A program made the translations under genes and the position numbers. Positions 30,487 to 59,324 of a stretch of 64,000 bases of DNA are shown piece after piece; the first letter of the stretch is position 1, and each line of letters starts with the position of its first letter. The notes under the pieces are model-generated. The model did not search any database. It saw nothing but the letters and a program-made list of their open reading frames with translations, and was not told the DNA's origin. This stretch comes from Pempheris klunzingeri (taxonomy: Eukaryota; Chordata; Actinopteri; Acropomatiformes; Pempheridae), in assembly GCF_042242105.1 (NCBI RefSeq), contig NC_092032.1, positions 19,158,915-19,222,914 on the forward strand. The letters are read 5' to 3'.

Positions 30487-30580
30487 TTTATTTAAATAAC
30501 TTGGGTGGATATTTGAGTACAGTAAAGTGAAATTCCAAAAGCAAACCTTGTGATTGTGGTTGTGACTTCATGTGTTTATT
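30487..30580 (-). terminator. Poly(A) signals of the buc-like gene
   Basis: On the minus strand two AATAAA hexamers follow the inferred stop codon (30600-30602): one at 30580-30575 and one at 30492-30487. Either would give a very short 3' UTR (about 50-140 nt). Their closeness supports the inferred end of the gene. Confidence 0.5.
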
Positions 30581-30599: not shown

Positions 30600-33500
30600 T
30601 CAGTCCTGGAGGCGTCTGGGTTGGGCATCGCTGCTTTCCATGACCTCTCTGTAGAGTTAAGAAAAAGGCAGAGTTACACAACAGCACAGTGAAGATTAAT
30701 GCTCCTCATATCATAAGTGAAAACCACTTGCTTACCAGTCTGCCACCTGTGTGTCAGGTAAATCTGATCCATGTTCCTCCATTTGTCTCGAGGGGAAACG
30801 GGCATGGCGCAGTTCTCATCAATTTCTCGAATGGCGTTGCCGTGGGGACAGTGGCGCAGCCTCTCCCGTGCAACAGACTGATGCTGCAGCTCATTACACA
30901 CACAGTTCTTCTCCCTCAGCTTTGGGTACGTCGCTGAAGGACATTTGTCCAAGTTCTGCTTTGAGGCCAGCGGCCTCTTGAGATCCCTGAGCTTCCGGGG
31001 ATCACCGGCCGCCCTCCATTTGGGCCCAGTGGGACATGAGCTGTTCTCAGAGGATTCTCCCTCAGTGTCGTGTCCGTGAAGGAGGCCACGGACGTCAGAG
31101 CAGGAGCCTTTTCTCATCAGTCGTTTAGTGGAATGAGATTTGCAGGCTTCGCATGTTGGCAAGAGCGCGTCGTTCCACTGTTGGAAAGGCACAGCTTTTC
31201 TTTTTAAGGTCCGACCATCAAGTCCTGGACTGGCGGACGTGCAGATCCGGCGCTTTGCCAGACATCTGGTGCAAAGTCGCTCTCTCTTGGATGCATAGGG
31301 GGTAAACGCGTTCTCATTGAAATTTCTGCTGAAGCAGCATTCATGGTCAGAGAGGCTTCGCCGATCCGCCTTGCCTTTGGGCTTGTATCGCTCTTTTGGC
31401 TTGCGGATGGCAGGTTCTTTGTACTCTAGGTCTAATTTTCTTCTTCTAGAAGGCACGTCTAAACCATGAGTGCTCAGAGGTCTGTTCTGCTTCTTGGGAG
31501 TTGGTGGCAACTTGCTGCAATAGTAGACATTATCAAAGTCAGCTAGCCAGCTGGTTGAGGGGAGGTAGGCTGGCAGTGATTCGAATGAAGTGTCCTGGTG
31601 ATCCTGGACAGTCGTTTCTCGTCCATGTTGGGTTCCATCTGCCTTAATAGGCGAGTTATCCAACAGCAGCAAATAAGGTGCATGAGCAACCTCCTCTGTG
31701 TGCGTCAGTTCAGTCATGGGAACTTCCTCTGCAACAGGAACAGTCATCATAGGGCACATATCAGCTTCAGAGTCAAACTCATCCTCTGGTCCCTCCACGT
31801 TGGGGACCGTGTCCTCAAGTTCATCCTCTACCAGAGGAGGCATCTCAATCATGGGGACGACTTCTTCTGTAGAAGACTCCTCGCTCACCGTCAGGACATC
31901 TGCTGATGGCACAACAGCGGCAAGTGTTTCATCATGAGACTCTGTGTGGCCATTTTGGATCAGTGATTCAGGGGAGGTAATCAAAGTTTCGTCCATTGAC
32001 CAGACGGTGGACTCCATCTTCCTCAGCTCATCCAGGTACTTTGGGTCGAAAGGCAGGTGAACGACTTTAAAGGGAAAGTTCTTGGATGTTCCACTGAGGT
32101 CTTTCTCACCGCTTATCTCCTGAACATCCCCATGAGCAACTACTTGAGAACCGAAAGCAGAGGCAACAGTCAGTGAGTCCATCTGGTTCTTTGGCTCCTC
32201 CAGAGCAGGGATCTTCTCACCACTGCTGGGCGTCCCGACCAACAGGATGTCAGGACAAGCTTGGAGTGCCTGCTCAGACTGGTCTGCAGGAAAGCACAGT
32301 GCCTCGTCCTGCAGCACATGACCCTGGAGGATGGAGCTACACTGGACCACATCCCGGGAAAAGCTGTGGGATACTTCTGCCGTCTCATGAGAATGCAGGA
32401 CCTGTAGACCCACCGGAGTGGTGCAGCATTCAATCCTCACCTCTTCCGTCTGAATCACAAAGCTGCCGTTTGGTGGTGTCCTAGTCGTTGAGGAGGGCAC
32501 CGTGTCCTTTAGCTCCAGAGAATGATCCCCCTTCTGCACAGACAAGACTGGTGATAGCGACTGACTGGTGGGGACACAGATGTTGTCGCCGTTACGGACT
32601 GGGAGGCCACTGGATGCCTCGATATTGCTGGAACCTGGGGTGCTGGTCCTCTGGGTTGCAGACAGTGGCTCAGTTTGCACCTCAGAGCTGGTCATTTCTC
32701 TTGTCTGGCTGTTGTGCTGGTAGCGGAACCTGCGAGAGTGGTACGCCATGGTCTGGTAATACTGAGGGTTGAGCATGCGTCTGTAGTCCATCAAATGGAG
32801 ATGGGTATGGGGTACAACAAAGCCAGGAGGCTCCATGTACGGATTTGGTGAATAAGGGGGCATCATTGGCATACCATAACCTTTAACAGAAGTAGGGAAA
32901 CAACTCATTTCACAAGCACATCTCACTAAATATCTGATTAGTAGATAGTACAAAGTAGAAAAGCATTGCCCAAGAGGGAAGGTTGCATTAGCTTAGCATG
33001 CTAATGGTCAGTCAATAAAGCAAAAACCTTTAAACTGTGTTTTCAGGTCTCAGAGTGGATTTGGGTTTCAAATTTGGCTCAGAAACTAGACTGCAGCCAC
33101 ACTATGGGTTCTGTGAAGCTTTACTATAACCTTTTACTTGTTCACCATCTTAATTTAGCATGTTGGCATGCTCACATTTGTTAGTCAACACTTAAAATCG
33201 TACATTGATGGGAACGTCATTAGTTTTGCAGGTATTTAATCGTAAAGGGTCAGACAAATAAAAATTTTGACCCAATGATGGCACTGAAAAGCCAGAGGAT
33301 CAAAGTCATGAGGATCTCTCATCTAGCAAACATGAATGTCCTCTGCATATATAGCATGAAATAGTTAAGACATTCTTGATGGCATTCACACAATTTGAGC
33401 AGTTGAGACAGTACAGGAATATAAAAGCCAAATGTGAATTTGAATTATTTATATAATGTGATTTAAGCAATACTGTTCTCATTAGCACATCATTAAATCA

Positions 33501-34057
33501 AATAACGCAACATAATTATTCAAACACCTCACTCTTGATTCAGATGCAGCCTCTAAAAATGTGAGCACATTCACATTAATTTAATGTGTGTGTATCGAAC
33601 AGTGTCCAGAGATGTGCACAAACTCATTTATTTAGAAAATTAATGTGGAAAAAAGGAGAATTTCACTGCGTTAATTTCTCTGGGGGAAAGGGCCTCATAG
33701 AACAGTGATTGTTACAAGACAACATGAAGCACAAGTCAAATATTTTAAGGGAGCGTTGCACCAAGTAGAAACAAGAAGATTTGGGATTTGTTGGCACTTA
33801 CCTAAACCAGGGTAGCCATAGTACGGGTTGTAGGACACAGGCATGGGCACTTGTACAGGCCACTGCAGACTCTGCATGGGCAGGTATGGCTGCGAGGGCT
33901 GTACGTAGAAGAAAGGTTTGTGGTGCTGCTCCTCAGGACGTGGGGCTCCTGAAGGCCCTGGATGGGTCCCCTGGGCCTGATGAGCTCCATGTGGTGGGTT
34001 TGGACCGCGAGGGCCCAGACTGTACGAGTGCTGCAAGGTAGATGTGGCTGCTTCCAT
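30600..34057 (-). CDS. Bucky ball-like protein (buc paralog), three coding exons
   Basis: Seen: coding exons 34057-33802, 32880-30736 and 30646-30600 join in phase into about 815 codons with GT-AG introns. The first exon has the hallmark aromatic block PFFYVQPSQPY at about residues 48-58. The second continues with PPGFVVPHTHLHLMDYRRM and the SEVQTEP motif, which together resemble the conserved N-terminal Bucky ball/Velo1 (BUVE) region. A long acidic, disordered middle follows, then a basic C-terminal part with CxxC pairs (CTRC near 627, CEAC near 665) and the tail DQIYLTHRWQT. Known: Buc proteins self-assemble and nucleate the Balbiani body and germ plasm in oocytes. Start chosen at the ATG in the PFFYVQP exon; the frame is open upstream but an acceptor (34060-34062) immediately precedes it. 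It is a diverged paralog of the gene at 37.4-39.9 kb on the same strand. The last 15 codons depend on an inferred acceptor (see separate entry). I am sure of the family, less sure whether published names buc1b, buc2 or similar apply. Confidence 0.9.
32881..33801 (-). other. Intron 1 (coding) of the buc-like gene with a repeat copy
   Basis: Donor gtaagtg at 33801 and acceptor ttctgttaaag ending at 32881 are in phase 1 on both sides. Within it, about 33100-33330, lies a degenerate copy of a widespread fish repeat. It is recognised by GCAGGTATTTAATCGTAAA followed by AATGATGGCACT and GCCAGAGGATCAAAGTCAT. A better copy of the same family lies at 28560-28835. Confidence 0.6.
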
Positions 34058-34395
34058 ATCTGACAAAGAGACAAGAGGCGAGCTCAAACAATCCTTTGAC
34101 TGATTTGTTTTTTGCTGGCAAATTTGTTGCAAGATACCAGATGGTTTCAGTGTATTTTCTGACAACAGACCGGCTGAACAGGTGTACCTGAATGCAGGAA
34201 GAAGATAACCACAGACAAACCACCACAGCCTTCAAAGTATGCTTAAAATTGGAACAAAAGGTGTGGACACATGAGACAGGCTAGCTTGTCAAACACTGTA
34301 TAATTCTGTTTCAAGGTGACAATTGTCCAATTAGTCTTTTTTTGTTTTAATGCCAATGAAAAATGTTTGTCTCCCACTGTCATGCATCAACTCAC

Positions 34396-34460
34396 CTGGG
34401 GGAAAGGCAGACAATAGATCCGATATGTACAGAAGTAGGATTGGTGGATTTCAGGTAGAG
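34396..34460 (-). other. Possible non-coding first exon of the buc-like gene
   Basis: On the minus strand a pyrimidine-rich stretch ends in a consensus donor CCCCCAG/gtgagt at 34396/34395. No ATG lies directly before it, so it would be a 5' UTR exon joined to the acceptor before 34059. A second donor-like site (CAG/gtacac) occurs near 34189. The transcription start is not visible. Confidence 0.35.
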
Positions 34461-35557
34461 GAGGTGAGAAGCTGATTGGCTTTAATTAAGAGCAGACCTG
34501 CAGCTTGTCATAATCATCGGCACAGCTTTCAGATATATGGCTCAGTGTCCCTTGCGGTCTCTTTTAGCATCTTTGCGAAGCTCGACGCTCATTTTCTTGA
34601 GGATTACCTCATTTGCAGGAGCGCCGCGCAACAGATATCTCTAAAATGCAAAGCACATATTCACACAGCCTGTGTTGAGGTGCAGGTTTCACCCCTGAAG
34701 AGCCAATTATGAGTTTAGATGAGAACTTGTTTGGTAGCCTGAAGCAGCATTTACAGATGGTGTTATCCATGAAGAATAATCATGCTCAGTGAGACTCGAC
34801 CAGTGATTTTTAATCAGTATTACTGTGTAAAGAGGTATTCTATGTTTTTGGGCAAAACATTCCTAAAAAAAAGTTTTTTACATTTATTTAAAATCATTAA
34901 TGCCTACAACTGTAATATGTTTTTTCAGGACATTCTGCTATTTGTATTGATCAATGGATGGCATGTTTTGGTGCAAAAAATCCTTTTTCTTGCAATAATC
35001 GATCATCTAAATCAGCAGGATTTGCTTTACAGAAAGCATCCAGGCACCCAAAGGTTGGTAGTATGAGGGCTGTAGCAAATTATTTTTTTCCAATGTTGAA
35101 TACTCTTATTGAATCTTCTCAAAGGATTCATCCATAGGAAAGAGTGAAAAGTGACAATCTCAACTTCACAAACCGGTGTGAAGATGTTTGGTCTGATCAA
35201 CAGACCCAAATATATTCAGTTAATGATGATGAAAAACAGAAGAATCCACCTGTGTGCAGAGCAGTTTGACATTTCTGCTTCATGAATGTAATGTCAAGTA
35301 AACAGACCGATATCTGAGGTATGTGTATGACACACAGTATGAATAACTTTAGTCATTTCGTACTGCTCAGAGTGTAAAATCCCTTTACCGCTCAAATTTG
35401 TTAACTGCTCACTGCATTACTTTAAGTTGTCCCAATGCAGCACCTGTAAATCAGCAAACCTGCTTCTTCAAAAAACACCCAGGATTTTAACAAGTACTAG
35501 AAAATGCACATCAGCTGTTTCCCCGTCCTGCTCCTGTGAGCCACTACGACGTTTCCC

Positions 35558-35618
35558 TGCTCCAACACAACTGATTCAAATGAATGGATCGTTATCATGC
35601 TTCAGTTGTGTTGGAGCA
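35558..35618. repeat. Palindromic MITE-like element with 17-bp arms
   Basis: Arm TGCTCCAACACAACTGA (35558-35574) is mirrored by TCAGTTGTGTTGGAGCA (35602-35618). The intervening TTCAAATGAATGGATCGTTA TCATGC fits a common fish palindromic element. It lies in the spacer between the two buc genes. Confidence 0.65.
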
Positions 35619-36424
35619 CATTCGTAGAGATGGTAATGTTGCAAGATGCTCCGATGTAAAATAATTCAAAACAAAGCTTAAATAATGACATTATTTTATT
35701 GGACTGGCCCCAAACAGTGGCACACCATCATCTGCAACACAACCTTTCAGCCCATTTGCCTGTTCGTGAAATTCATAAATCATGAATAGTGCACGGCAGA
35801 AACTTTATACATTCCTTTTCCTTTTTTTTTTTTTTTTTTTTAAACTTTCATCTAAACAAAAAGAGGCTTTCTGTGCAGTGCTTTTCACCTGGTGATCTAA
35901 ACAACAATTACACCTTTGGGGGGGGGGGGCCTGTGGAGGAAAGAAAGAAGATTAAAACACATTTAAAACACATTTATCCGATAGAGGAGCTGAAACATGA
36001 ACAGTGTGCTGAGTGCATTTTACCTACAGTTCAACACACTTCATTCAGTCAATCCGGGGACGTTAACATCTTGGTTCTCTCATCGTAGAGCCTGACAACA
36101 GAGACCAAAATAAAAATCGCATTCAGGAGTGTGACAGGTCAGGGTTAACGGTGTTGCAGCAGAAAATCTGATTAACCTCTTTCCCAGTGCAACGGTGGCG
36201 GCTCGTCATCATCATTGTCCTCATCTCTTGGCCTGTGGTACATCACTTTCCTCTGAGCGCTCATCTCTATCCAGTGAGATATGAGCACAATAAATTACCA
36301 AGAGCACGACAAAGGAAGCAATGTACTGGCTATAAAGCAGAGGGGGGGAAAAAATGCCAACTGAAACATCACTTACATCCACAGTACGACCAAATAAATT
36401 ACAGGTTCTATTCTCAAGTATTCA

Positions 36425-36720
36425 AAATGACTGGCAGGTACAAAAAGTTTTGGAATTGGTCCAGCAGAACGTCTTAGCCAGCGGCAATGAAACATGCTGA
36501 AACGCCTGCAACGTAACCGTTTTTAGGCAAGTCAATCATCATCAGGACACATCCACTAAAAGTGCTTAGTAGTCGCTACAGGTTCAGATTGTTATTTTAA
36601 GTGTTAATAATTATGGAGGGGATCCCTACAGAGACAGACCTGTACGATCGTATCGCTCTCCTCAAAACCACCAGACTCCATTAACAAAAATAGTAATTTT
36701 GCCTCACAGAACACAGCAGT
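36425..36720 (+). repeat. Dispersed repeat, copy in the buc-like/buc spacer
   Basis: CAGGTACAAAAAGTTTTGGA followed by ATTGGTCCAGCAG, then TCGCTCTCCTCAAAACCACC, AGACTCCATTAACAAAAATA. The same blocks in the same order and spacing occur at 58890-59170. Non-coding, known to me as a common percomorph interspersed repeat. Confidence 0.65.
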
Positions 36721-37369
36721 GGCTGGTCTACTGCCATGATCGGTTAATTTGTTCGTGTTAATGTGTGAGTTTTTTTAAAGGATTTCTTCAGATCCAACAC
36801 AATATTTGTGTAATCCAGCAGCAGCAGTCATTTCAAACACAAAAAAAAAAGGACCAACGTTTAAAAATACCAAAGATTTTCCTAAATGTTGGATGTAGGT
36901 GCGACAGGTCTGATGGGTCGTGATTTATTCTTTTCTACAGGACTAAAACTGTCAGTAGTGGTTTACTTTATAGTGAGCAGTAAAAAGATTTCAAATGCTT
37001 ATGAATCACCATTTTGTGGCATCGAATTTACACCCAGAATTCATTCACTCAGAGTAAATATGGTGCAGCAGGCACCGAATAGGAAGCAACTGTGGACACA
37101 GCCTAAGATATTCAAAGCCAGTTGTCATTGTTGGCTTTCATACTGTGTATTCTGCCCACAACCTTAGACTGCGGTTCCAGCTCAGCATTTCACAAACATA
37201 AAAAAGGATAAATTAATAAATTTAGGACCAAAACTGCTCCAACTTGGCTGCAAAATTCTAATTATGCCACACAAGCTGTTTGGGCAGATGAATCGTGTTG
37301 TTAAATGACTTCAAACTTTGGTTGAATTTGTGTGTTTGTCTCTTTTTTTCTTACAGGACACGCCAGAGG

Positions 37370-39855
37370 CTAAACTTCACCTTGTCGTTGCAGCGCTGTT
37401 GCTTGTCTCCTCCTGGGAACCACATCACTGTCAGCCCACCTGCCTTGGTCTGATGTGCTCAGATCTTCTCTGCAGAGTCTGTCTATCAAAGACTTCACAC
37501 ATTCAGTACATATTTCTGTCATGATTACAGAAATCAGACTGAGAAATGCCAAATAAAAACATTGAAAAGGGCTGCATGGTGAAAGGATTGGGGGCATCTA
37601 TTGGCAGAAATACACTGGTGGAATATTACACTCATAATTAAGTTTCAAGTATGTTTTCAGTAGTGTTAAAATGACCCAAAAATCAAGAACTGTGTCTTCA
37701 TTAGAGTCCGCCATGTTGCACCACCATGTCTCCACAGTGGCCTAGAGCGGACCAACTGGGACCTTGTGCATCGTTTTACATTTAAATGTGGTGTCGGTGC
37801 CCAAACGCACTGGTTTGAGGGTGAAGAAGAGGAAAAGCATTTTTGTGTTGTGACAGAATATTTAGCTCAAGAAAAAGCAAAATATGAATCCTCGTTTGCC
37901 ACCGTAGCTTCTCCTGCATGCTTGGAAAGGGAGGGGTAATCTCGCTGCACCTTTAAGCCGCCTGAAGAGGTCAAAGAGAGACTTACCCTGACATGTTCTG
38001 CACTGCAGCTCACTACTAGTCATCTCCCCAATGTCTCCATCAGCCGACTCCTGCTTACATAGATCATGACCTTCCTCCTGGTTGGCTGGATCTGAGGCGT
38101 CTTTGTATTGGCCTCTTTTGTACCACGGTTTTGCGGCATGTCTCAGAGGGACAGAATGGGGCTTCCTGGGTGCAGAATGCTTCCTCACAACCACTCTGAC
38201 CGGCTGCTCACAGCCTCTTCCATATCCACTTTCCTCCTCAGAGTCTGCCGCTTCGTCCCTGTACATCTTGGAGCTGTGGACTTTGCTCCTACCTGCTGCT
38301 TTCGCCAGGCTTTTCCCACAGCAGGCGCACATGAACCTCTTCGAACCCGGCAGCCACGCTTCCTCTGCCTCCTCGGCAGCTCGTGGAGATGCACTCACGA
38401 CCTCCGCGAGCCTCCTGCCTGGATACACGTGTTTGGGGAAAAGATCTGCGTCGTCCAGATCTGTGGAGAACATCTCGTCTCTGGAGGAAAGCTCGTCCAG
38501 AGACGGACTGAGGACGCTCATCCGCTCGTGGGTGGTGTGCATGGACAGGTAGTTGTAGTAGTAGGGAGCAGAAGGGGAGGACAGGCAGCCGGCTGCAGCG
38601 TCTCCTGATGTCACTGCGCTCTCAAAAGGCAGCTTGAGGATCTGGTAGCTCCGATCGGGCTTCTGGTGTTCAGTCTTCGAGACTCTCTCTCCACTTTTAG
38701 CATCTTTGAGCGCTGGCTGACTGGAGGTGAAGGAGGGAGATGATGTTGCAGGCAGGATCTGCTTCATGAGCTCTTCAGCGTCACACTTGGCAACACTCGC
38801 ATCAGTCACCGAGATATCTGACTGGATATCCGTGACCTCTGCTTTCCCAAGAGGGACAAAGAGTTCATCTGCTGCTGGCTGCTCCAGCTCAGGACACTCC
38901 TCATGAACAGAGGAGCTATCGAGAGGCAGCTCCTCTTCCAGTCCTCCTGACCAGCATCCCTGAGGGCTCAGGATGTCTAAGCTCCTTTGGCTGGACTCGC
39001 CGTCGTACACCGCCGTCGTGGAGTCACTGAAGGTCACGGCTGGAGACTCCAAGTGGCTGACGTCAGGCGCCGAGGGCAGGACGTGACCCTGCTCCTCCTT
39101 TTTCTTCTCCTCTCCCGGAGAAAACATTCCCGAGGACTGCGAGGCAACACCCGAGTCCAGTTCTCTGTCCGCGCCCTGCAGCTCATTGGCCCGAATCTTA
39201 TCCAGGCACTCGATGAGTTTGCTTATGGCGTCGCTGGGGTCGGTTTGTGCCTCCGAACAGGCCATTTCTCGACGCCCGTGGGGCTGCGGGTGATGCTGCT
39301 GGCGAGGAACGTCATTCCAGACGGGAGCGTGGAAGCGAGGTTCATACATGCGCCTGTAATCCATCGAGTATATCGGGGCATGTGGGAAAACAAAGCCAGG
39401 ATACTGAATGTACTGGTAAGGGTGCATGCAGGGACGGCTCAAGTTAAAACCTGTTAGAAATACAGATGCACACAGTGAGATTTCAGGCAGTGAATATTAT
39501 TACAAGAGGGAAATAAGCTTAAACAGCTCGATACCTCCAGGCAAACCATAGTGACTGTATGGGTTGTTCATCTGCCAGTGCTGGTAGAGGTAGTAAGGTT
39601 GAGATGGCGGCTGGACATAGAAAAAGGGCCTGGGATGGTGAGTTCTCTGCTGCCCGCTCCCAAATGTTTGTGGTTGTTTGCCTCCATCTACAGGAAGCAG
39701 TGGTTTAAATTCAAATTAAACATTTTCCTTTAATACCAAGCAGTTATACCAGTCTCTGCTCACTGGGGTTAGTAGAAATGGTGAGTTAACACAGCTCAAA
39801 GGTTTTAAAAATCAACATTTGGGTGTGAAGAAACATGGAAGTCTTTACCGTCCAT
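37370..39855 (-). CDS. buc: Bucky ball (Buc), germ-plasm and Balbiani body organizer, four coding exons
   Basis: Seen: coding exons 39855-39849 (only ATG GAC G), 39687-39535, 39450-37987 and an inferred terminal exon 37467-37370 join in phase to about 573 codons. The N-terminus carries PRPFFYVQPPSQPYYLYQ (about 21-38), then FNLSRPCMHPYQYIQYPGFV and SMDYRRMYEPRF, followed by CSEAQTDPSDAI. These are the aromatic, prion-like BUVE blocks that identify the family. The rest is low-complexity and acidic with a YYYNYLS patch, a CACC cysteine pair near 427 and a basic C-terminal third. Known: Buc is a maternal-effect protein needed for Balbiani body assembly and germ-cell specification in fish. Of the two paralogs here this one reads closest to the canonical Buc pattern. 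All coding introns are phase 1. The last exon is the weakest part; without splicing the frame would run into a transposon-derived tail ending at 37862. Confidence 0.9.
37670..37956 (+). mobile_element. Common fish MITE-like element in the last buc intron
   Basis: Recognised by CCGCCATGTTGCACCACCAT followed by GTCTCCACAGTGGCCTAGA near its start, and GCCACCGTAGCTTCTCCTGC then a terminal GCACCTTTAA near 37947-37956. I know this combination as a non-autonomous repeat frequent in percomorph genomes. A second, oppositely oriented copy is at about 14220-14470 (starting TTAAAGGTGCAGTGTGTAGG). The element ends about 30 nt from the buc exon-3 splice donor (37986). Confidence 0.65.
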
Positions 39856-44596: not shown

Positions 44597-47500
44597 ATGT
44601 CGGATCTCAGTGAGCGCAGGCCGGTCAACACGGACTACGCTGTCTCCCTGCTGGAGCAGCTCAAGTTCTTTTACGAACAGAAATTACTGACTGACGTTGT
44701 GCTGCTGGTGGAGGACACGGAGTTCCCATGTCACAAGATGGTCTTGGCCACCTGTAGCTCCTATTTCAGGTGAGTCCACCATACCGCTGTCAGCACAGTG
44801 CTGGGGGTGTGGAATATCTCATGTTGTATGATGGGGATTTCAGTTTTTAAGAACCTCAGGGTGATTGGGACCATGCTTTGTGTGGTATAGCTCCTACAAT
44901 TTCAATAAATAATGCACCATACAGTGTGGGCTTTTGTGTTTAAAGACAGCAATTATTCCCCCAGTCTGATTGTGATGAGGTGTGGGTACGCTGTCATTAT
45001 GTGGTGCCATTGTTATGTCTGTAAGTGCTCACCTCCTACAGTTACAATGAATAATGCACCACGTTGTAGAGCAAGTGTTACCCCTCTCTATACGCGGGAG
45101 GATGGAAAACAAGGGATGGTGTTTCTTCGAAAGCTGCGGCTCGAGTCGCCCTCTGCTCCGGCTATTCCATCTTTGATACGTTCCTGCACCGGCTACAGGA
45201 AGCAACCTCTAACTTGTACTTGTGCAGATGTATCCCCCAGGGCCCTCGGGAGGCCTCATTTGTACGCACAACATTGCATAATAAAGTGTGCGCACTGCAG
45301 AGAATGTGATAGCAGCAGCCTCTGCTCTGGGAAGAGTCCATCTGTACATGACAGGAGCTCATGGTGCATTTGAACACCCTGTCTAACTTTCCGTCTCACC
45401 CCTCCCCTCTTTCGCTGCACACTCGCATATGCATTCCAAGAAAAGGTCCCGACAACTCGATGCCCCCCTCACACGCACCTCTCCACCATCTTCCCCGCTG
45501 TTTCCCACGCACTCGTTATCTGGTGACAACATGCAAAGAATTTCCCCTCCGGGGTTCAGAGGTGTCGCAGGGCTTCCTCTGAAGCGCTACTCCTCCCCTC
45601 TCTTTCTCTGTCTCTGTTTGTTGCCTCGCCCTCCTCACACGCCTCGCTTCAGGGGAAAGGGGGAGACCGCGAGACTCTGGAGAGAGCTTGTGTTTGGAGG
45701 GGAAAGTCTGGTCACGTAGGTCTTGGTGAGAGATGGAGAGAAAGGGGAAGAAAGAGAGGAAAAAGAGGGAGGGGGTGCGGGGGTATGCCTGCAGGGTTGC
45801 GTAATACGGCCTGGCAGGTTTAGCCCCCGCTGTGAGCAGCACACAGTCACACACCCCCAAAACCCCCCATACAGGAGGGCAGGGCTGATTTGCAGACATG
45901 TTATTGTTAAACGGTAGATGGTTATTTTTTATCATTCACTAATCTCTAAGAAATCAATCAATAAAAGGTCAGAACATTTAGAAAAATGCTCATCAGAACT
46001 TCATGGAGTCCAGTGCAACATCTCCTAAGCGTTTGTTTTAAGGACCGTAACTAACTAACTGTTGTTCTCATTATCAATTAACCTGACTGTTATCTTCTTG
46101 AGTAATTGTGAAAAAGGCTCATCATGATTTCCCAGAGCTGATGTCAACAAATGTCTTTGTTGGTCCACCACCAGTTCAAAACCAACCCAAGACATTTAGT
46201 CTAGCATCCTGTAAGACAGTAAAAACCAGCAAGATAAAGAACTGGAGAAGCTGGAATGAGTAAATGTTATCAAACACAAGGATTAATTGATTATCTGAAT
46301 GGTCTCATCTACAGTTTTCAATTAATTGACTTGAGCGTTTTAGCTGTAATTGTTTTGTGCGACCATCAGTCCCATAAGTGATTAGATAAATGATTTTAAT
46401 GATTTGCACTAATGTTTTACAGTGATAGAAAGGGCATGCATGATTTAATTGATTATCAGAATCGGTCTAAATCTATCGCCTGTCAGTGTAGAAAGTGATT
46501 GATGTGCTAAAGGTTTGGGCTTTGGAAGGTGCTTCTAGTTTCAGTCTGCATATTTTGATCCCTTCAAGGAAATTCCTAAAAAATAATTGTATGTTTGATT
46601 TGGTTTGTACATGATTGTTCAAACCCTTTCCCATGGAGCTGTTCACCCAGAAAAAAAACCAAATTTTGGCAGCGAGGAAGAGATGTGTTTGTGCATTCCT
46701 CAGCAGCAATTGTGTCTTGTGTGGAATAAACAGGATAGTGAGGTCGGCATGTACAGTGACGAGCACCAAGCAGACGATGCCGTTGACGGAAACAAGTCAG
46801 AAAAAGTAGACGCAAGTGATGGAAAAACAGTGGCAGTGAATTGCCGACGCTGTGTGTTTGACATGTGAAGCTCAGAGCATTTGGCGCCGTAATAAATGCA
46901 AATTACCAGTTCGAGCCAACAACGGTTCTACAAATGCACAAAATGTGAGAAATTGATGTGGCGAAGGAGGTTAAAGAGGCTCTGACTCACTCAGAGCTCC
47001 GATGAATGACAACGTGGAAGCGTAGGCGGCCCGCCAAGGCTGCACAGAGAAGCCCAGCTGGAGGAAAACTGTGCACAGCTTAGCCCACCAGGCAGGTGCT
47101 GACTGACACTTTTTTCATTCAGTATTAGGAAACTGGGTTGAGGGACTAAATCGGTGAACAACAGCTGTCAAGTATCAAATCAGTAGTAACATCTGCTCCA
47201 AATAAAGCAGAGGCGTTCAGTCCTGCTCTTCTGAGACCAAGGATACCTCTAGTTTGGTGTTTTGATGTGGCAGTTTGGTCACAACTGAATGATAGAGTCT
47301 ATGCACTTATGAACAGTGGCACAGTATTGAATAGGACTCCATCTAACTGTTATTTTTGAGTATCGATTAAGAGTTTGATCTATAAAGTGTCTGCCTCAGA
47401 TTCCCAGAGCTCAAGGTGACGTCTCCACGTTTCTTGTTTTGTTCAATCAAGAGCCAAAGATATTCAATTTACAACAATATGAAATGGTGAAAAAAACAAA

Positions 47501-50500
47501 ATGGTTGCAGATTGATTTTCGCTTGATCAACCAATTGATCAATCAACCAGTGGTTTCAGCTCTAGTGCTGAACCTGATGAGTAGTTTGTAAAGGGAGAAG
47601 AATGAATTAGTCATGTGGAAATGATGGCCAAGCAGGTTTTGGCATTCGCTGTTTCATTTCACTCACTTTCTTAGTGCGTTCAGAACGTTTTATCGTTTAA
47701 CTGTGTGGTAGCATTTACAGCTGGAACAATTGACAGAAAATTAATTGATAATTTTGATAATCAGTTCATCTTTTAAGTGACACTTTTAAGCAAAAATGCC
47801 AAAAGAAATCACTGGGCACCAACTTCTCTCAAGTTAAAATGTGCATGTTTTCTCCCTTTTCTGTGATACTATCTTGAATATCTTTTGGATTTTCTGATAT
47901 TTTATTAATCAAGCAGTTAATCTATTGAATTAATCAGCTGATTAGTTAATGATTTAAATGAATACTCACTGGTCTAGTAGCTTTTGAAATGATACCATGA
48001 GTGTATCACAGTATTGTAATAATATAAATATAAAATAATCCCAGAAGACATTTGGTGTCTCCATGAAAGTTTCGTATAGACTCTTAATTTCTCTGGATTA
48101 TTTTGCTTTTCACAACACCTTGATTCCAGCAGCAGCCAGTTACAGGTAGCCTGAATGTTTTTACAGCCACGTTGGTGAGGGGCCAACTGTCATTAGGAGG
48201 CTCTGTTTATTTAAATAGAAAAACACCAAGCAGGACTGTGCACTGAAGAGTTGACCACTCAGAATCAGTTTAGCCAAGTGAGTTTACACATGTGTGAAAC
48301 TGTTGTTGGTGTTTTAAGTAAAAAGCAAGAACTGCAAAGTCTAGAAGCACAGAATATAAGATATTTACTATAAATATGTCAGATATACTGTAGAGAATAT
48401 GTTGGATGAAATGTGAAAATGTGCACATGGATGAATTTAATCAGTGTGAGATCTTGTTGTTAACTTCTTCATTCGATAAGTGCCGACTGACGACCCTTGG
48501 TCCCCACAGGGCGATGTTCATGAGTGGCCTCAGTGAGAGCAAACAGACCCACGTCCACCTGAGGAACGTGGACCCGGCCACCCTGCAGATCATCATCACC
48601 TACGCCTACACGGGCAACCTGGCCATCAGCGACAGCACCGTGGAGCCGCTCTACGAGACCGCCTGCTTCCTGCAGGTCTGTGCAGTCAGCTCTTGTCAAC
48701 ACATTTCTCATTTGGATTTACCCCAGCTATAACTGCTCTTATTTCTCTGGGCCATGGAGCTCAAGTATTGGACGAGAACTACTAACTGCTGCTGGAAATA
48801 GTCACAAGAGCGCTGAAAGTGTATTAATCCACCACTGAAAATCTGTTTTTAACTTTGTTTTTGCTTTTTAAAAACATGGTAACCTTGTACGATTGTCTAG
48901 TATTTATAAATATCTATAGTGTTGATGGGAAGACAAATGTGCTATCAGACTGTCATCGCTTGTCCTCTGTCCCCTTTAGGTGGAGGACGTCTTGCTGCAG
49001 TGCAGAGACTATCTGGTGAAGAAGATCAACGCTGAGAACTGCGTCCGCATGCTGAGCATCGGCGACCTGTTCAGTTGTAGCGAGCTAAAGCAGAGCGCCA
49101 AGCGCATGGTGGAGCACAAGTTCCCCGTGGTGTACAGGCAAGAGGCCTTCCTGCAGCTCTCCCACGAGCTGTTGATAGACGTCCTGAGCAGCGACAACCT
49201 CAATGTGGAGAAGGAGGAGACGGTGCGCGAGGCGGCCATGCTGTGGCTGGAGTACAACATGGAAGCACGCTCGCAGCACCTGTCCTCCGTGCTCAGTCAG
49301 ATCCGCATCGACGCGCTGTCAGAGGTGACGCAGCGCGCCTGGTTCCAGGGTCTGCCACCCAACGACAAGTCTGTGGTGGTGCAGGGTCTTTACAAGTCCA
49401 TGCCCAAGTTCTTCAAACCTCGGTTAGGCATGACCAAAGAGGAAATGCTGATCTTCATGGAGGCCATGTCAGAAACGCAGGGTGAGGGATATGTGATGGC
49501 CGGGTCTTTGCCCACTACAGTAGTATGTTACAGCCCGCAGGCGGAGAAGGTCTACAAGCTCAGCAACCCCCCAGGAGACCTGCAGAAGGTGGGAACCCTC
49601 GTTACACCAGACAACGATGTGTTCATTGCAGGTGGACAGATCCCTCTCAAAAACTCTATCACCAACCACGGCAAGAGTGGCAAGTTACAAGCGGTTTTCC
49701 GCTCGGTCGATAGCTTCTTCTGGTTTGACGCCCAGCAGAACGCCTGGGTACCTAAAACCCCCATGCTGTGCGCTCGAATCAAGCCCTCGCTGGTCTACTG
49801 CGAGGGCTACATCTATGCAATCGGGGGGGATAACGTTGGAGGTGAACTAAACAAGCGCACGGTGGAGCGCTACGACTGCGAGAAGGACGAGTGGAGCATG
49901 ATGAGCCCGCTGCCCTTCGCCTGGAACTGGAGCACATCCGTGGTGGCACACGACTGCATCTACGTGATGACCCACGACCTGATGTACTGCTACTTCCCCC
50001 GAGCAGACACGTGGGTGGAGATGGCCATGCGCAAGACCAGCCGCTGTTTCGCCTCTGCAGCTGCCTTTGGTGACCTCATTTTCTACATCGGCGGCCTCCA
50101 TGTGGTCAGCAACTCCGGCATCCGCTTGCCCACGAGCACCATCGACGGCTCCTCCGTCACCGTGGAGATCTATGATGTCAACAAGAACGAGTGGCGCCTG
50201 GCCGCCAACATCCCTGCCAAGCGGTACTCGGACCCGTGCGTGCGGGCGGTGGTGCTGCTCAACTCGCTGTGCATTTTCATGCGCGAAACCCACATGAACG
50301 AGCGCGCCAAGTACGCGATCTACCAGTACGACATGGAGCTGGACCGCTGGTACCTGCGGCAGCCCGTGTCCGAACGCGTCCTCTGGGATCTGGGCAAGGA
50401 CTTCCGCTGCGCGGTGGGGAAGCTGTACCCCTCCTGCCTGGAGGAGTCCCCCTGGAAACCCCCAACCTACCTCTTCTCCCCCGACGGAGCCGAGGAGTTC

Positions 50501-50539
50501 GAGGTGGACGGGGAGCTGGTAACCCTCCCTCACGTATAG
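44597..50539 (+). CDS. kbtbd2: Kelch repeat and BTB domain-containing protein 2 (Kbtbd2)
   Basis: Seen: exons 44597-44769, 48510-48675 and 48980-50539 join in phase to 632 codons. The BTB domain (about residues 20-125) reads [17 protein letters not shown] and [24 protein letters not shown] domain follows (about 130-240, ending in [14 protein letters not shown]), then kelch repeats (about 295-625) with paired glycines such as FIAGGQ, YAIGGD and FYIGGLH. The protein closely follows human KBTBD2, which is 623 residues; the extra residues lie between BACK and the first kelch blade (around [12 protein letters not shown]). Known: KBTBD2 is a Cullin-3 substrate adaptor that targets PI3K regulatory subunit p85-alpha, tuning insulin signalling. 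Start: ATG at 44597 has A at -3 and matches the family N-terminus; ATGs at 44584 and 44589 are out of frame. Exon 3 is unusually GC-rich compared with its flanks, as is common for fish coding exons. The gene is tail-to-tail with avl9. Confidence 0.97.
44770..48509 (+). other. kbtbd2: kbtbd2 intron between coding exons 1 and 2
   Basis: The donor gtgagt at 44770 and acceptor ccccacag ending at 48509 are clear, and the joined arginine codon (AG/G) restores the BTB sequence FRAMFM. The intron holds no exon I can recognise. It contains several degenerate copies of a fish repeat marked by phrases such as CAAAGATATTCAATTTACA (around 47340-47560) and AATTAATTGATAATTTTGAT (around 47725-47960), with a weaker one near 46030-46480. 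Confidence 0.7.
48676..48979 (+). other. kbtbd2: kbtbd2 intron between coding exons 2 and 3
   Basis: Donor gtctgt follows the codon for Q113, and acceptor cccctttag ends at 48979. The junction reads FLQ/VEDVLL, which matches the family sequence exactly, so the boundary is certain. Only short AT-rich intron DNA lies within it. Confidence 0.85.
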
Positions 50540-51479
50540 CTCTTAACCTCCCCTCCCCTACCTCACTGACTGAACCAGGAATCTGTAACGCTGAGGGATG
50601 AACACGAAGGGGGGGCAGATCAGATCTCTGAGATATGAAAGGGTTTGATGTTATCTGTGTTGCAGAGGGATCTCTGGACTTTGGAGGCTTGCATTAGCTA
50701 CAGCTGCTGCTGAGGAACAGTGCAGCCCACAACAAGCTTGGAGAGAAGAAGAGGCCCCTCAGAAATACTAGTAATCTGAAAATTTCTGTTATTTTTGGTT
50801 CTTTTTTTTTTTCCTCTTCTTATTTTTTGTCAGTTGTGACATCTGTTAGATATTATTACAAGTCTGTCATACTGTTTCTACAATGTGATAATCTAAACAT
50901 CAACTGATTTTTGTGATGATGATGAGGGTGATGATGCACTTAACTGGTAAACCTTCTCGAAATGACAATGGCAACTGTACCAAAATCCCCCAGCCCCCTC
51001 CGATTGTGGCTTCCCTCTCTCCCACACCCCCCCACCCCTCTCCTCTTCTTGTTCTCCTCTCTCACCACTGCTAAAGGAACACGCCACTGAAAATCTATCA
51101 TCAGGGCATCAAAAACATGCCTGTAGGCTTTAAAGAAGGAGGCTCTGAAAAAGTTGTAGCTTGCTCCTTTATCAGAGGACTTGCAGATCAGTCAGGCAGC
51201 TTTGATTCAGAAGGGATTCCAGTGGTGACCTGGAGGCGCACCAGTAAAAGCAAGTAAAACTTCTGAAACCACCCCTGTAGGACAACAACGGAGCCTTGGC
51301 ACTACAGCTAGGTGGTAGAAAAATAAGTGTACTGGAACATACTGAACATGTGGATCAGTGGTGGACAAGTGGGTGGTTTGAGAAGTTTTAACGCCCGTCT
51401 TCATGTTGACTTGGAAATATTAGCTTGGCCAAAAAAAATCTTAGTGTCAATTAAAGTCACTTAAATGTGGTTGAAGGTT

Positions 51480-51740
51480 TGTAGCAAGTGGAAATTAGTT
51501 CCACAGGTCAATAACATGTTTTTCACAGAGGATTAATCTGTCAAACGCTTTTTTTTACAGGATTCATCTTTTTGTCTATAAAATGCCAGAATAGTCAGAA
51601 GTGACTTGATTTAACAGTCCAGAAGCCAAAAAGTCTTAAATTTACAGCCATCAAAAAACACATTCTGACGTTGGAGAAGCTGAAACCAGAGAACGTCGGA
51701 CATTTTTGCTTTAGAAATGTGTTTCCAAGCACGAATGTCA
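51480..51740 (+). repeat. Copy of the same degenerate repeat in the kbtbd2 3' flank
   Basis: TTAATCTGTCAAACGCTTTT, TTTGTCTATAAAATGCCAGA and GGAGAAGCTGAAACCAGAGA are the expected blocks, in order, of the family also seen at 47.3-48.0 kb. Confidence 0.45.
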
Positions 51741-51799
51741 AACATCCTGTGGATCCAGCTTCTCTGGTTTTATACATCATTGTAGATTGAATACTTAAA

Positions 51800-51920
51800 C
51801 AACACTTTAATAATAAATAATAATACATTTTATTTAGAGGCGCCTTTCTGGCACTCAAGGTCGCCGTACAAGAAAAACAGTAAAACAATAAAACATAGAA
51901 AATTAAATAAGTTAACACAA
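51800..51920 (+). repeat. Fish repeat (GGCGCCTTTCTGGCACTCAA type)
   Basis: ATTTTATTTAGAGGCGCCTT, TCTGGCACTCAAGGTCGCCG, then TACAAG and A-rich sequence is a recognisable tail of an abundant fish repeat. It contains AATAAA hexamers that should not be taken as kbtbd2 poly(A) sites without RNA data. Confidence 0.5.
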
Positions 51921-52859
51921 TATAAAATACTTTAAGACACTGATTACGACTCTTGGACACGTGTTACTGTTTTCTGACGTTTAATCGACCACACAATTAA
52001 TCAGAAGTGGAAAATGGTGGTTTCTCTGATCTGATTCTGTCACTTGACCTCTCGGACTACTTCAGACGTGTTTTCTTTGAATCCACGAACAGACTGAACA
52101 AAATACAAACTTTTCAGAGCCACGTTTAAAGTGTTTGATGCTCGGTGAGGAGAGATTTTTAACGGAGTGTTCCTTTTTTATTTAAAAAAAAAAAAAAAAA
52201 AACAGAATCCGTGTATTTCTCCAAAAAAGCCCCCCCATGGATGAGAGGAACGGGGGAGGAGGGGGGGGGCGTGGTTTCTGGGAAGGGTGGGGAGGGCTGA
52301 CGGGGCGGGGGGGAAACGAGCGAGAGGCGGAGAGGGTTACAAAGAGGGTGGCTGCAGGTCCGGTCACCCATCACCTCTCCTCCCTCGCCGCTCCGCCCCC
52401 CCCCCCCCTCCCTCCACCCTGACTCCACTATAGCGCCTCCGCAGCCCGTCTGTCAGTCTGTTTGCACACAGGTCTTCCACACAGCGAGCAGTTTACACCT
52501 CACTCCATCCAGCGTCACATGATCATGACACCTTGTTTTCCTTTCCACGAGGGGCTCTGCAGACACACGACTCCACTCTCAGTACAAACACACGTTTCGG
52601 GCTCATGCTTTTTTTTTTTTTATTTTATTTTTTTTTTATTTCCAAGCTGCTGAAATATATATATATAATAAAATATATATTTTTCATATGTTTAAAAGAC
52701 AACTGTTTTAGTGTGTGGGGGGGGAAATAACCAGGTCTATTTTGTATTAGTGTCTTTTTTTAATTTAAATATCAGACATTACTGTAGTGTGATTGTGGGT
52801 AGATATCCATTTTTCCTATCAGATTTAATTTTTCTCGAGTGAATATTGAGGAATCTTGC

Positions 52860-52980
52860 TGCTGATTGGTTGTGAGAGGAGAGGGCTGGCCCGCGGCTGT
52901 TGCTATGGAAATCGTCCCCGTCAACCGCCAGCGGTAGCGGAGAGGGCGGGCCGAGGAGGGACGGGGTCTTCCTCCTACCT
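52860..52980. promoter_or_regulatory. GC-rich element with ATTGG, RFX-like and GC boxes
   Basis: In an AT-rich flank, 120 bp combine GATTGGT (inverted CCAAT, about 52864-52870), GTTGCTATGGAAA (RFX/X-box-like, 52899-52911) and GGGCGGG (about 52946). It lies between the convergent kbtbd2 and avl9, so it may be an enhancer or an unannotated promoter. Confidence 0.35.
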
Positions 52981-53583
52981 TAAAAACATGAGCACAGGTG
53001 CTTCATGACAAACCTCACAAGCATGTTTGGCTGCATCATATTCCTTTGGCACTGTATTTTGAATGAACGTTAATTTATTAAAAAACATACCAAAAACGTT
53101 CCTGAAACGGACTCTCTGCCTGTTTTGTTGTGACTGAAACGTGCTGCTTCTCTGCTTATTTAGAATAGTTGAGCATTAAGGTTGGATATTGAATTTTGAG
53201 TATTGAATTTCTGGACGGTTTAATTGTAAAAATTGCAAATATTAATCTTATTTAGGAAGTTCTTCAGCAGCTGCTTGTGTTTAACATCTATCAAGTTAAG
53301 CTCCTTTTGTTTAAACGGGGAAAATAGGGTTTTTTAATCAGGGAGATCATACACAGTGAATATTCATGTCAGATTCAATACATTCAGATATTACACACAT
53401 CCACAAGTATCATTGAGTAGTCCAAGACATGTTTCAATAATCCAATAATAATATTAATAATTCTGCTTTCCCTCTCATTTTTTAATTATATTCTAAACAA
53501 ATGTATGCCCATCTATTCATAAAGGTACACTCACAACCCGATCTATTTGGCAATCCTGTAGAATCAATATTTTATAGAAGGGT

Positions 53584-53935
53584 AATTAAAGCAAGTCTGG
53601 TCTCTGTGGACCAAATTTCTCTGATTGCATCTTTATAGAAAATGTCCGTCTTTCCATGATGTAAATATGGTGTATAATTTTAAACCAATCATCTAGTGTT
53701 GGAGCATCTGGTTGTAACCACTTCTCAGTCAAGGACTTCAGTAATATTCTCATTAAATATTTGTCTGCTGCAGATTGAATATGCAGAACTACTGCTGGAA
53801 AAACATGCTTATGTTTAGTGAAGAAAGGCTTCAGGACGTCGGCTGTCCAGAAAAGACCACCACGGTCCTTAGTGTACAAATGATCACCGCCCCAAAATTT
53901 ACCAGCAAGGTTTTTCCCAACATTAAATGCATAAC
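53584..53935 (-). pseudogene. LINE ORF2 C-terminal relic (L1/Tx1-like)
   Basis: The minus strand frame from about 53915 to 53586 reads GGLFWTADVLKPFF, LKSLTEKWLQPDAPTLDDWF and HHIYIMERRTFSI. A tryptophan/proline-spaced motif followed by an I..YIMER.TF helix is typical of the C-terminal end of L1-type reverse transcriptases in fish. Only about 100 codons are left and no endonuclease or YxDD catalytic region is in reach. The family assignment is from pattern recognition only. Confidence 0.45.
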
Positions 53936-55190
53936 GTCTGTAGCTGAAACATCATCTGAACGTCACAGAAGACAGAAGTGTATCACAGACTTCTCCGGGT
54001 TGTTTCCAGTGTTACATGTGTTCTGATAATACTGAAATTTTAGCTCCATCTCCAACGTTAGCGATATTCTGCCTGTTAAATCTGTGAAAAAATGGTAAAT
54101 ATAAGAAGAGTCTGAGATCCCTGATCTAAAATGGGTTTATGTTCCATTCATAGCTTTTACTTTTTAGTCATGGAAAAGTCAGGGAATTTTATACTTGACT
54201 TGGAGTGGGACAGTCGTCTAGTTGCTTGTGCTCTTTGGTCCTTTAACTACAACAAGAGGAAATTAAATGACAAAAACAGCAATTACTTATAGTTTAAAAT
54301 GAAGAGTTTGGATTGTGGAACAGCAGTTTCTAGGTGAATTCATGTTTATGGGCTATTATTACTGGACTAAGTGCTTTTTCTTTGGCTGACATCAGGTTAC
54401 GGATGAATGTGGAAATAAACGGTGGCTGCAGGTCGTCCAGTTTTAGAAGAATATGCATGTTTTTCTACAAAAGCTTTTGTTCGTCTTACAAAAGAAGCCA
54501 AAAGTCCAATACTAGGATTTGTGGTACCACTTTACGATGAGACTACCCTCATAAAGGTTTTAGAAATGCTTTGTGATTAGTTTATTAATTATGGTACCTC
54601 TTAATAAACCATTAATAAGCTGTTACACTACGGCTCCATTGTGCCTTAAGTGTTAGTAACTCATCAGTACGGTTAACTGGAAATAGTGAGCCTGCATCAA
54701 TGCATGAAAACTTTCTTAGAACTTGTTTATTAATGATTTAATTGAGTGAACATAAAAAAAACACATTTAAAACTGGAAATATTGTAAAGACGAGTGCAGA
54801 AAAGGTTAATTTATTAATAGTTAACTAAACAATTCCAGTTTTTGAAGTACTGGCTGACTCAAACCTGCTTTTCCTGTCTCACATCATCATGAGCTGAACC
54901 CTTGGTGATTGTTTTTGGCTGCAGAAGGCAGAAGTGAGGAATCAAATTAAGATCAATAAGTGGGTTGATGATGGTCCCGTCACTCAGGACCGCTGGCTGT
55001 GAGGTCCAGCCGGCCGGCCGGCCGCGGGCCCCCCCGAGGTCACCGGGGTCGCGTGTCCCTGTGATGCTGCTGAATTGTTGTCAGACAGCACATGGGTGCG
55101 TTTTTGTCCGACCACGCGCCACAACAACATCCCCCGTCTACAAACACACACTCGCCACCACTTTGTTTGGCTGACCTACATTTGCACCCA

Positions 55191-55193
<3 letters not shown>

Positions 55194-55224
<31 letters not shown>
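55194..55224 (+). repeat. (CA)n microsatellite
   Basis: About 15 units between the convergent kbtbd2 and avl9 genes. Confidence 0.9.
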
Positions 55225-55228
<4 letters not shown>

Positions 55229-56109
55229 CCAGAGGGATGAAAGACGAGAATTATTCCGATATCATAGCCTGCTAAAAATAAAGCTGTGCGGTATGTTTTA
55301 ATCCGTTTTTAATACAGCAATATAGTAGAGTATCACTTTCTTCTCAAATACATTAAAAGCATCTGTCAAGAAAATATTCTGTGAATTTCAGTTCACAATA
55401 CATTCATATCTTTTAAATACAAAATGAAAATATATCATCAGAGGATAAAAAAAGAAACAAAAAGCAGCCTTTACAGCTTTTTTTTAACCTAATAACCCAG
55501 AAATCAAGAAGAAGAAAGTCCCAGAAACGAGTCGATGGCCGAAGAAAGTTTAAAAGCATGAAGAAGAAGAAGAACAACAACAAAAAAAAAAAAAACCACA
55601 AACTATTAAAAGAGTTTAAAGACAGGAGGGAAAGTGGACTGGACAGAGCATGCTCACTGGACCACTTTGAATCCATATTCTTGTAGGATGGAGGGAAAAG
55701 ATCCTGGAAGCACCTCATGAATTACAGTCGTACGAGATAAAGAGTCACATAAATAGAATATTAATGGCTGCTTTGTGCAAATACACACAGTGGTCCACAG
55801 ATCAGGACTTGTTCCAGTGTCGTCATGACAAAACATAACACAGATTTATGAGATTACATGTTCATACACAACAAATAAATAAGATATCTGACTTTAAACT
55901 ACCTGCAGATTTGCTAAATATACTGTAGTTCTCCCGTTATATACTGTATATTCTGACAGCACGGTACAAAAAGGCCCGGGTGCTCGTTCCTTCATAGTTA
56001 CGGGAGCTTTTCGTCACGTTTATTAGGGCACTAAATCAGGCAAGAGGTACACGAGGAGTCACGCAGGAGCACTGTGGTGGTCGCAGCTCTGAGAGCGGAG
56101 AGATTTAAC

Positions 56110-56360
56110 AAGTCTGCAGCTGAGATTATCGGTCGAATAATCAATTTTGTCCACAAATTTTCATGTTTAAAAGGGGAAAAATGTCAGATATTCTAGGTTT
56201 CATGTGCTGCAAAACGTAAGAATTTACAGCTTTTATTTGTTTTATGTCACCTTAAATTAAATATTCTAATTAAAAGTAAGTTGAAGACGTCACAGTGTCA
56301 TAAAAAGGTATCAGACAAGTCAAAAATATAACGGAATAATCAATAAATAATAGTTTGAGC
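56110..56360 (+). repeat. Degenerate fish repeat related to those in the kbtbd2 intron
   Basis: GCTGAGATTATCGGTCGAAT, AATCAATTTTGTCC and later TTACAGCTTTTATTTGTTTT. It resembles the copies at 47340-47560, 47725-47960 and 51480-51740. It lies in the presumed avl9 3' UTR. Confidence 0.4.
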
Positions 56361-57251: not shown

Positions 57252-57903
57252 TCAGGGTTTGACCTCTGCGGCGGGCTCTGGACAGGTCGTCGCGGTTACC
57301 GCCGCGGGCTGGGCCAGCGTGGAGAACCAGGAGGACATGGCCGACTTGGCGCTGGTCAACGCGCCGCCCACCGACTGACCTGAGGACGGTGACACGAATG
57401 AGCCGCCAGTCACAGATTTATACTCGACTTTACTTCTTTTATAAGAACGTTTCTGATTTAAATCATTTCCAACATTCTCATACTAATATTCAAGGATTAG
57501 CGGTGAAACAACTGGGTCAATTAATGGACTAAACACATCAGCAAGAAATGTAGAAACTTTGATAATCATCTGCTGGTTCCTGCCTCTTAAATGAGGATTT
57601 GCTGCAGATTCATCTAAATGGAAATGGACATTTTTCATAATTTCTTACATTTCATAGACAGAATAATTCATTAATCCACTGAAAAGACAATAACCAATAA
57701 ACAATAATCTGGTTTAAAGGCCTTTCACCTTATTTCTGGGCTCTAACGTGAAGAACAGCATCATCAGAGAGTGAGCAGGTCTTATTTTGATTTAACTTTT
57801 CGGAGCTTTCTTACCCACAACCTTCCCCGTCTGGACCACGCTGCGGCTGGTAGTGATCATGGCGTTTCCGATCTTCTTCCCTCTCTCGCTGTTCTGCACC
57901 GAG
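57252..57903 (-). CDS. avl9: AVL9 cell migration associated homolog, last two coding exons (partial)
   Basis: Seen: exon 57903-57815 translates to SVQNSERGKKIGNAMITTSR and SVVQTGKVVG, and exon 57379-57252 to QSVGGALTSAKSAMSSWFST followed by a variable tail ending EVKP and TGA at 57252. The pair reproduces the C-terminus of human AVL9, where the same SVQNSERGKKIG and SVGGAFSSAKTAMSSW blocks occur. Splice sites are sound: donor gtaag at 57814-57810, acceptor cag before 57379 and ctgcag before 57903. The split glycine codon is restored across the junction. Known: AVL9 is a DENN-related protein of the late secretory pathway. The exons upstream, including the NTHNYRVW..NPNHPFQGQYSVSDMKL region, were searched for by eye up to 64000 and not found, so the preceding intron is at least 6 kb and the gene leaves the window. 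Confidence 0.93.
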
Positions 57904-58559
57904 CTGCAGTAGAAGAAGAAGAAGACAACAAAAGGTTCACAAACCATGTCTGCATGCACCCCCCTCACCTCCCCGTCTCTGGTGTGACATTGTAGGAATT
58001 CTTCCTCCTTTCCAGGAAGCAAACTACACAAAAGTGCCGTTGCTAAATGTTGCGCCAACCTGTTAGAGGGGATTATGTAACGGCGGAGGCTGAGCAGCAG
58101 CCACAGGTGGTGTATCTGACCGTCGGAGCTGTCCGGAGAGCGGAAACAAGCAGCAGGCCGTGTTTCACAACAAATGGACGGCCTAAAGTGGCCCCGCCTG
58201 GTTTTATCTGTGCCAATCCAGGACCCGGTCTTCCACATGGGTCCCCACTGACCTGACAGCCACTTCTGCATCATCTGGGAACGGCGGCGACGTTAAAAAG
58301 ACGCCTGTCAGCAGCTGCCACACCGTTAATTAATGGGGAAATAAACCCTGTCACTGTGTTATTTTACTGCACTGCTTCCTCTCCACAGCAGACGTCTGCC
58401 TCATGGACACAACTCCATCACATTAACACACTTTCACCCTTAAAGCTAAAATCCATGAACTGTTTTGCTTAAAATAACTCAAATCATGGTCATCTACACG
58501 GTCGAATGTCGGGCTGGATGATGAAAAAAAAAAATTACAAACCATTTTGGGAAGCAAAG

Positions 58560-58830: not shown

Positions 58831-58889
58831 TCACAGTCTGACAGTATTTTTAAACCTGGTCTCTATTTTTACATATTTTGGGTTTGGAT

Positions 58890-59170: not shown

Positions 59171-59324
59171 GCTGCAGGTCAGAACTATAACACAACCTAA
59201 CTATTTGTCAGTGGAGTCTTCAAGCGTACAGTAATATCTGCTAAAGATAAATATAATAATAATATAAATATCTGCTTAGTTATTGTTGTGTTCATGGTGG
59301 CGGTCACTTTTGCTCTTTTGCTGC

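Follow-up and report, generated by a model that had tools for sequence, protein, structure and literature searches.

A probably old tandem pair of Bucky ball family genes beside kbtbd2 in Pempheris klunzingeri and a third family member on a second contig

The Bucky ball (Buc) family organises the germ plasm in the egg, and Buc functionally matches Drosophila Oskar. Hallmarks of Buc and Velo1 are prion-like self-assembly, localisation to the Balbiani body and the binding of Vasa, Hermes and nanos RNA. The question at stake is the number of Buc-type scaffolds per fish oocyte. Here, a stretch of 64,000 nucleotides (nt) from the 645.9-Mb genome of Pempheris klunzingeri (contig C21:19158915-19222914, called the window below) was analysed, in which two intact Buc family genes, A followed by B, lie head-to-tail on the minus strand at positions 30600-39855, near kbtbd2.

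The closest systems were described by Skugor et al. 2016 (PMC5080839). According to these authors, the linkage of the family to kbtbd2, avl9 and lsm5 is conserved, and linkage to kbtbd2/avl9 is reported for elephant shark, coelacanth, gar, teleosts and most tetrapods. Gar has a tandem pair of buc and buc-like (bucL), and teleosts have buc2 beside kbtbd2-avl9-lsm5, with bucL duplicated in several of them. Salmon, herring and zebrafish are described as having a paralogon in which both buc and bucL are duplicated; buc1 was lost in most of the teleosts examined, and in rodents and primates buc is lost or a pseudogene. The same paper cites tandem duplicates in pufferfish and mammals from its reference 23, and names buc1 by its rnf31 and rnf152 flanks and buc2 by kbtbd2 (PMC5080839). 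Medaka has buc and bucl, and amplification from an ovarian library yielded cDNAs of both (PMC10984276). In zebrafish Buc, the published position of the BUVE region is amino acids (aa) 23-136, and a conserved central motif occupies aa 372-394. Words for a paralogue are absent from PMC12691124.

The locus in the window agrees with those of gar and teleosts (PMC5080839) in the gene family, in the tandem buc/bucL arrangement found in gar, in its neighbours and in the presence of a bucL-type gene at a second locus. A is probably the canonical buc and B probably a bucL, and it is likely that they are the two partners of a tandem pair of old origin, kept where the family ancestrally lay, next to kbtbd2-avl9-lsm5. 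Tandem pairs in this gene neighbourhood are known from other fish and are not new here; the new elements are a third family gene (C) on a different contig, the failure to detect any buc1, and flank markers that do not discriminate buc1 from buc2. In contrast with the naming scheme of PMC5080839, both marker sets occur here at one locus, whereas the second locus has only rnf31 and a bucL-type gene. Medaka also has buc and bucl, but a third gene is unmentioned in the cited part of PMC10984276. The BUVE region is common to A, B, C, zebrafish Buc and Xenopus Velo1.

The A/B pair is real and had been recognised correctly in a preliminary description of this DNA, as confirmed by the coordinates (the ATG of A at 39855 and the stop codon of B ending at 30600, as given there), the intact frames and a BUVE alignment of 80.1 bits. 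The coding parts of both genes have the same orientation and are separated by 2.1 kb. Their features, with the basis of each, are the following:

36172..39855, minus strand: gene A, probable buc (called buc2 after the closest neighbouring gene, kbtbd2); splice sites, frames, paralogy to B, genome search
39236..39640, minus strand: approximate BUVE of gene A (HHPRPFFYV ... SEAQTDP); alignments with B and C, coordinates from the exons
39534-39451, minus strand: phase-1 intron splitting the BUVE of gene A; exon model
37381..37515, minus strand: exon 4 of gene A, 135 nt, 45 codons; usable-looking splice sites, completes a CxxC pair (CRTCQEICTEC)
30600..34057, minus strand: gene B, probable bucL, 815 aa, last acceptor uncertain; splice sites, frames, alignments, genome search
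32666..33925, minus strand: approximate BUVE of gene B (HHKPFFYV ... SEVQTEP); exon model, alignments with A and C
33801-32881, minus strand: phase-1 intron splitting the BUVE of gene B; exon model
31694..31993, minus strand: acidic segment of gene B, aa 382-481, with 28 D/E and 0 K/R; composition, coordinates from the exons

The alignment between A and B was confined to the N-terminal region (39% identity over 141 aa, 80.1 bits), which in A, B and C we take to be BUVE from family sequence and from its published position. When B was shuffled 500 times as a control, 398 of the shuffles yielded alignments, with a top score of 29.6 bits. Both proteins are thus homologous over BUVE, and the remainder has diverged beyond detection except for a [KH]LPF[DE] word, chosen post hoc, which is common to A and B at comparable places; LPF[DE] also appeared in 54 of the 5000 shuffled versions of A and in 100 of the 5000 of B. 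The LPF letters, again chosen post hoc, stand at residue 327 in A, 361 in B and 386 in C, and were compared with the zebrafish central motif by position only. Every intron inside the coding parts of A and B is in phase 1 and the BUVE intron is homologous, in line with the identical phase-1 positions previously claimed for the pair; that identity did not hold throughout, as the first exons differ and A has one extra exon near its 3' end.

Both proteins are predicted to be mostly disordered, since a FoldIndex-type score fell below zero in 76% of the 51-aa windows of A and in 65% of those of B, compared to 3% for KBTBD2 as a control. An AlphaFold model of the main exon of A, with the main exon of B as the sole other row, had a mean predicted local distance difference test score (pLDDT) of 40.5, and its sole confident segment was a predicted helix at residues 125-150 of A, behind BUVE. 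By alignment this helix has no counterpart in B or C, and the asymmetric divergence proposed for the pair is therefore upheld at the level of sequence. The helix segment resembles zebrafish Buc, a likeness taken as a lead only.

The third intact gene of the family, C, is bucL-like and lies on the chromosome-scale contig C15, where the genome searches with A and with B both matched at C15:23595820-23596146. It has at least four coding exons within C15:23596504-23593431, each ending in phase 1, that encode 776 aa upstream of the 3' end. In the genome search, the match of C with B had an identity of 45% (E 1.6e-12) and that with A one of 37% (E 0.0018). Over 120 ungapped BUVE columns the identities were 49% for B-C, 43% for A-B and 39% for A-C, and B and C were the closest pair in 8538 of 10000 bootstraps of these columns, with three sequences and no fetched outgroup; blastp scores followed with 125 bits for B-C, 82.4 for A-C and 80.1 for A-B. 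Also common to B and C are an ATG that lies shortly behind an acceptor rather than within a short first coding exon, an N-terminus rich in Pro, the MPxSYNP and RKM..VWS motifs, and SEVQTEP without a following helix. The bucL label is putative and was given on the grounds that B is nearer to C than to A and that A is nearer than B to zebrafish Buc. With the N-terminus of zebrafish Buc, A shares 47% over 156 aa, whereas B and C share 38% each with the same stretch and are without the TDPSD..KLI segment (both comparisons are leads only).

The genome search with A gave eight matches at E values up to 10 (four to A, one each to B and C, and two weak) and that with B gave five (two to B, one each to A and C, and one weak), among first-look candidates that numbered seven for A and ten for B. 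The weak matches were taken as noise: C12 (E 0.77, with stops) and C1 (E 2.5) with A, and C19 (E 3.7) with B. No second Buc-like gene was found in the 70 kb around C at E up to 10. A tblastn search of the surrounding 144 kb of C21 with both genes as queries (E up to 5) revealed, apart from A and B themselves, only two weak matches, with E values of 0.20 and 3.0.

As C is nearer to B than to A, the split between A and B probably predates the duplication of the segment now on C15. There, a second rnf31 lies at about 76 kb from C, and this rnf31 pair suggests that C15 is the whole-genome-duplication partner of the C21 block; if so, buc and bucL were separate before that duplication, in agreement with the tandem pair in gar (PMC5080839). 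The old tandem pair put forward in the preliminary description is borne out by the grouping of C with B and by a DNA similarity between A and B restricted to short pieces. The tandem duplication would have come first, followed by the teleost whole-genome duplication that copied the block, after which buc1, kbtbd2, avl9 and rnf152 would have been lost from the C15 copy.

Several points weigh against this interpretation and the functional one given below. The bootstrap has the narrow base described above, and the closeness of B and C is clear only within BUVE and a further two or three short motifs. The blastp similarity between A and C spans 386 aa (25%), longer than that between A and B, and A and C have some similarity behind BUVE too. 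Past BUVE, the best local match between A and B scored 21.2 bits, which is ordinary for shuffled sequences (380 of 500 yielded alignments, with a median of 20.0 and a maximum of 32.0 bits). Only two sequences went into the AlphaFold model, and 439 of its 486 residues had a pLDDT below 50. On C15, C and the rnf31 downstream of it share a strand, and on C21 rnf31 lies upstream of the pair and in the opposite orientation, so that the block must have been rearranged. No buc1 was found in the genome search, in which a strongly diverged buc1 could escape the scoring of first-look candidates. Finally, zebrafish BucL2 was judged unlikely to act in the germline by Skugor et al. (PMC5080839).

With respect to function, we propose that A is most likely a classical scaffold and B a co-scaffold. 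From published work on Buc and Velo1, the BUVE region, rich in aromatic residues and in Pro, Gln, Asn and Tyr, would drive self-assembly of the Balbiani body, and the tails would recruit cargo, as indicated by truncations of zebrafish Buc (PMC6219760). In that work, the truncated forms Buc(1-361) and Buc(1-601) each bind Vasa without inducing germ cells, and Buc(1-361) does not pull down the 3' untranslated region (UTR) of nanos3; therefore, the C-terminal part matters in zebrafish Buc (PMC6219760). A would carry out the classical scaffold work, its predicted post-BUVE helix perhaps aiding oligomerisation, and B would join it in this body of the oocyte as a co-scaffold, where its acidic middle and its basic, Cys-containing tail would recruit other partners. 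A division of labour between both proteins would be plausible, and the published hints on it point in different directions.

Another possibility, which we consider unlikely, is that B left germ-plasm work for a somatic or other role, with A as the sole organiser. The expression of three salmon buc genes outside the ovary too (PMC5080839) and the lack in B of a counterpart to the post-BUVE helix of A would fit such a change, but the BUVE of B is well conserved, and in medaka bucl RNA is found at the microtubule dome and marks the Balbiani body (PMC10984276). The scaffold and co-scaffold roles preferred for A and B could also be extended to C, a proposal we regard as rather doubtful: one buc with an oligomerising helix and two helix-less bucL derived from the whole-genome duplication, all with BUVE kept, would share germ-plasm assembly, co-assembling via BUVE, carrying different cargo on unrelated tails and replacing the lost buc1. 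This fish, in which a single probable buc and two bucL-type genes but no buc1 were detected, is a clean case for asking whether bucL shares the job.

It is very improbable that A and B arose by a recent tandem duplication in this species or its close relatives, followed by fast evolution of B. The short distance and common orientation of the coding parts are what such an event would leave, but the best region reaches 39% protein identity and there is almost no DNA similarity, with a best piece of 67 nt at 75% (E 6e-7) in BUVE, a next one of 34 nt at 76% (E 0.17), and others of 11-23 nt with E values of 0.17 or worse. In addition, C, on another contig, is nearer to B than A is, and the pair is already present in gar (PMC5080839); a recent origin was set aside on the low identity and the grouping of C with B. 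That B is a decaying pseudogene is more improbable still and was also set aside because, although its 815-aa ending requires an unusual acceptor, the main exon is open in one frame over 2145 nt, the donor and acceptor of the BUVE intron are intact and BUVE is conserved.

The coding exons of B are 34057-33802, 32880-30736 and 30646-30600, with the ATG 2 nt into an exon. One frame of the main exon is free of stops, for which the chance probability is about 5e-14 under an independent-base model, and the other two have 30 and 43. The 815-aa ending needs a GAG acceptor for the last exon, from 30646, and the use of a CAG acceptor 2 nt upstream would lead to a different frame that is open at least to 30500, the end of the scan. 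An AATAAA is present at 30575-30580 on the minus strand, about 20 nt past the 815-aa stop, and would leave a very short 3' UTR if used. Of the acidic segment with repeated VPM words previously attributed to B, the acidic part was found, but the repetition is weak, with VPM twice in the acidic stretch and once in BUVE. Residues 501-815 constitute a basic C-terminal part with a net charge of +20 and 15 Cys. The sole Pfam match on B was Zn_ribbon_8, below the cut-off (E 0.23).

Gene A has coding exons at 39855-39849 (7 nt), 39687-39535, 39450-37987, 37515-37381 and 36266-36172, giving a product of 617 aa. The 573 codons given for A in the preliminary description are not those of this product; they correspond, by arithmetic on exon lengths, to exon 3 joined to exon 5. 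As the length of exon 4 is a multiple of three, forms with or without it are both possible, and if its donor is unused an in-frame stop yields 589 aa. The main exon (1464 nt) is free of stops in one frame, with a chance probability of about 6e-9 under the same model, and has 13 and 26 in the other two. The middle of A is acidic, with a net charge of -25 over aa 136-400. The Pfam scan revealed no family on A, and a scan of bacterial and archaeal contigs with part of its main exon gave 239 pattern matches and 0 confirmed relatives.

The neighbouring genes, in window coordinates, are:

48980..50539, plus strand: main exon of kbtbd2, 519-aa open frame; PDB chain 8gq6_A, E 1.6e-295
57276..57911, minus strand: last two exons of avl9; human AVL9 query, Pfam Avl9 on exons beyond the window
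about 98 kb: rnf31, with a UBA domain; identified by Pfam
about 37 kb left of the window start: rnf152; identified by Pfam RNF152_C

On the minus strand, avl9 extends from 57.3 kb to around 80 kb. Its exons in the window are presumed from a search with human AVL9, and lsm5 was placed, presumably at 81.2-83.2 kb, by a sequence query only. Pfam searches of read-through frames at 50701-64000 (three, minus strand) and 47000-49100 (one, plus strand) gave nothing, so that the avl9 exons in the window are without Pfam support of their own. The kbtbd2/avl9 anchor suggested in the preliminary description is supported, as both genes are present and their linkage to buc is published for fish and most tetrapods (PMC5080839). 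All five genes, rnf152, kbtbd2, avl9, lsm5 and rnf31, flank the single Buc locus of C21. With both marker sets around one locus, buc2 is for A a name by nearest neighbour only, and rnf31 and rnf152 alone do not separate buc1 from buc2.

In the genome searches, rnf31 was found in two copies, on C21 and at C15:23517130, and avl9 and rnf152 matched at the C21 locus only. No second copy of kbtbd2 was found at E <= 1e-30 except for a kelch gene with 37% identity on C2 (best 83 of 102 candidates scored), and kbtbd2, avl9 and rnf152 were not detected on C15. In PDB searches, a piece of rnf31 had a single match (E 0.91), and rnf152 gave 16 RING-type chains, none of them rnf152.

Elsewhere in the window, ten long open frames had one Pfam match, below the cut-off (TIG_2, E 0.059), and all Rfam families stayed below their gathering scores over the whole window. 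A 121-aa open frame at 53586-53951 on the minus strand has no Pfam match; by eye it may resemble the C-terminal end of a long interspersed element (LINE) reverse transcriptase. Many C2H2 zinc-finger matches were clustered at about 1.82-1.97 Mb of C2 (best 150 of 3227 candidates scored).

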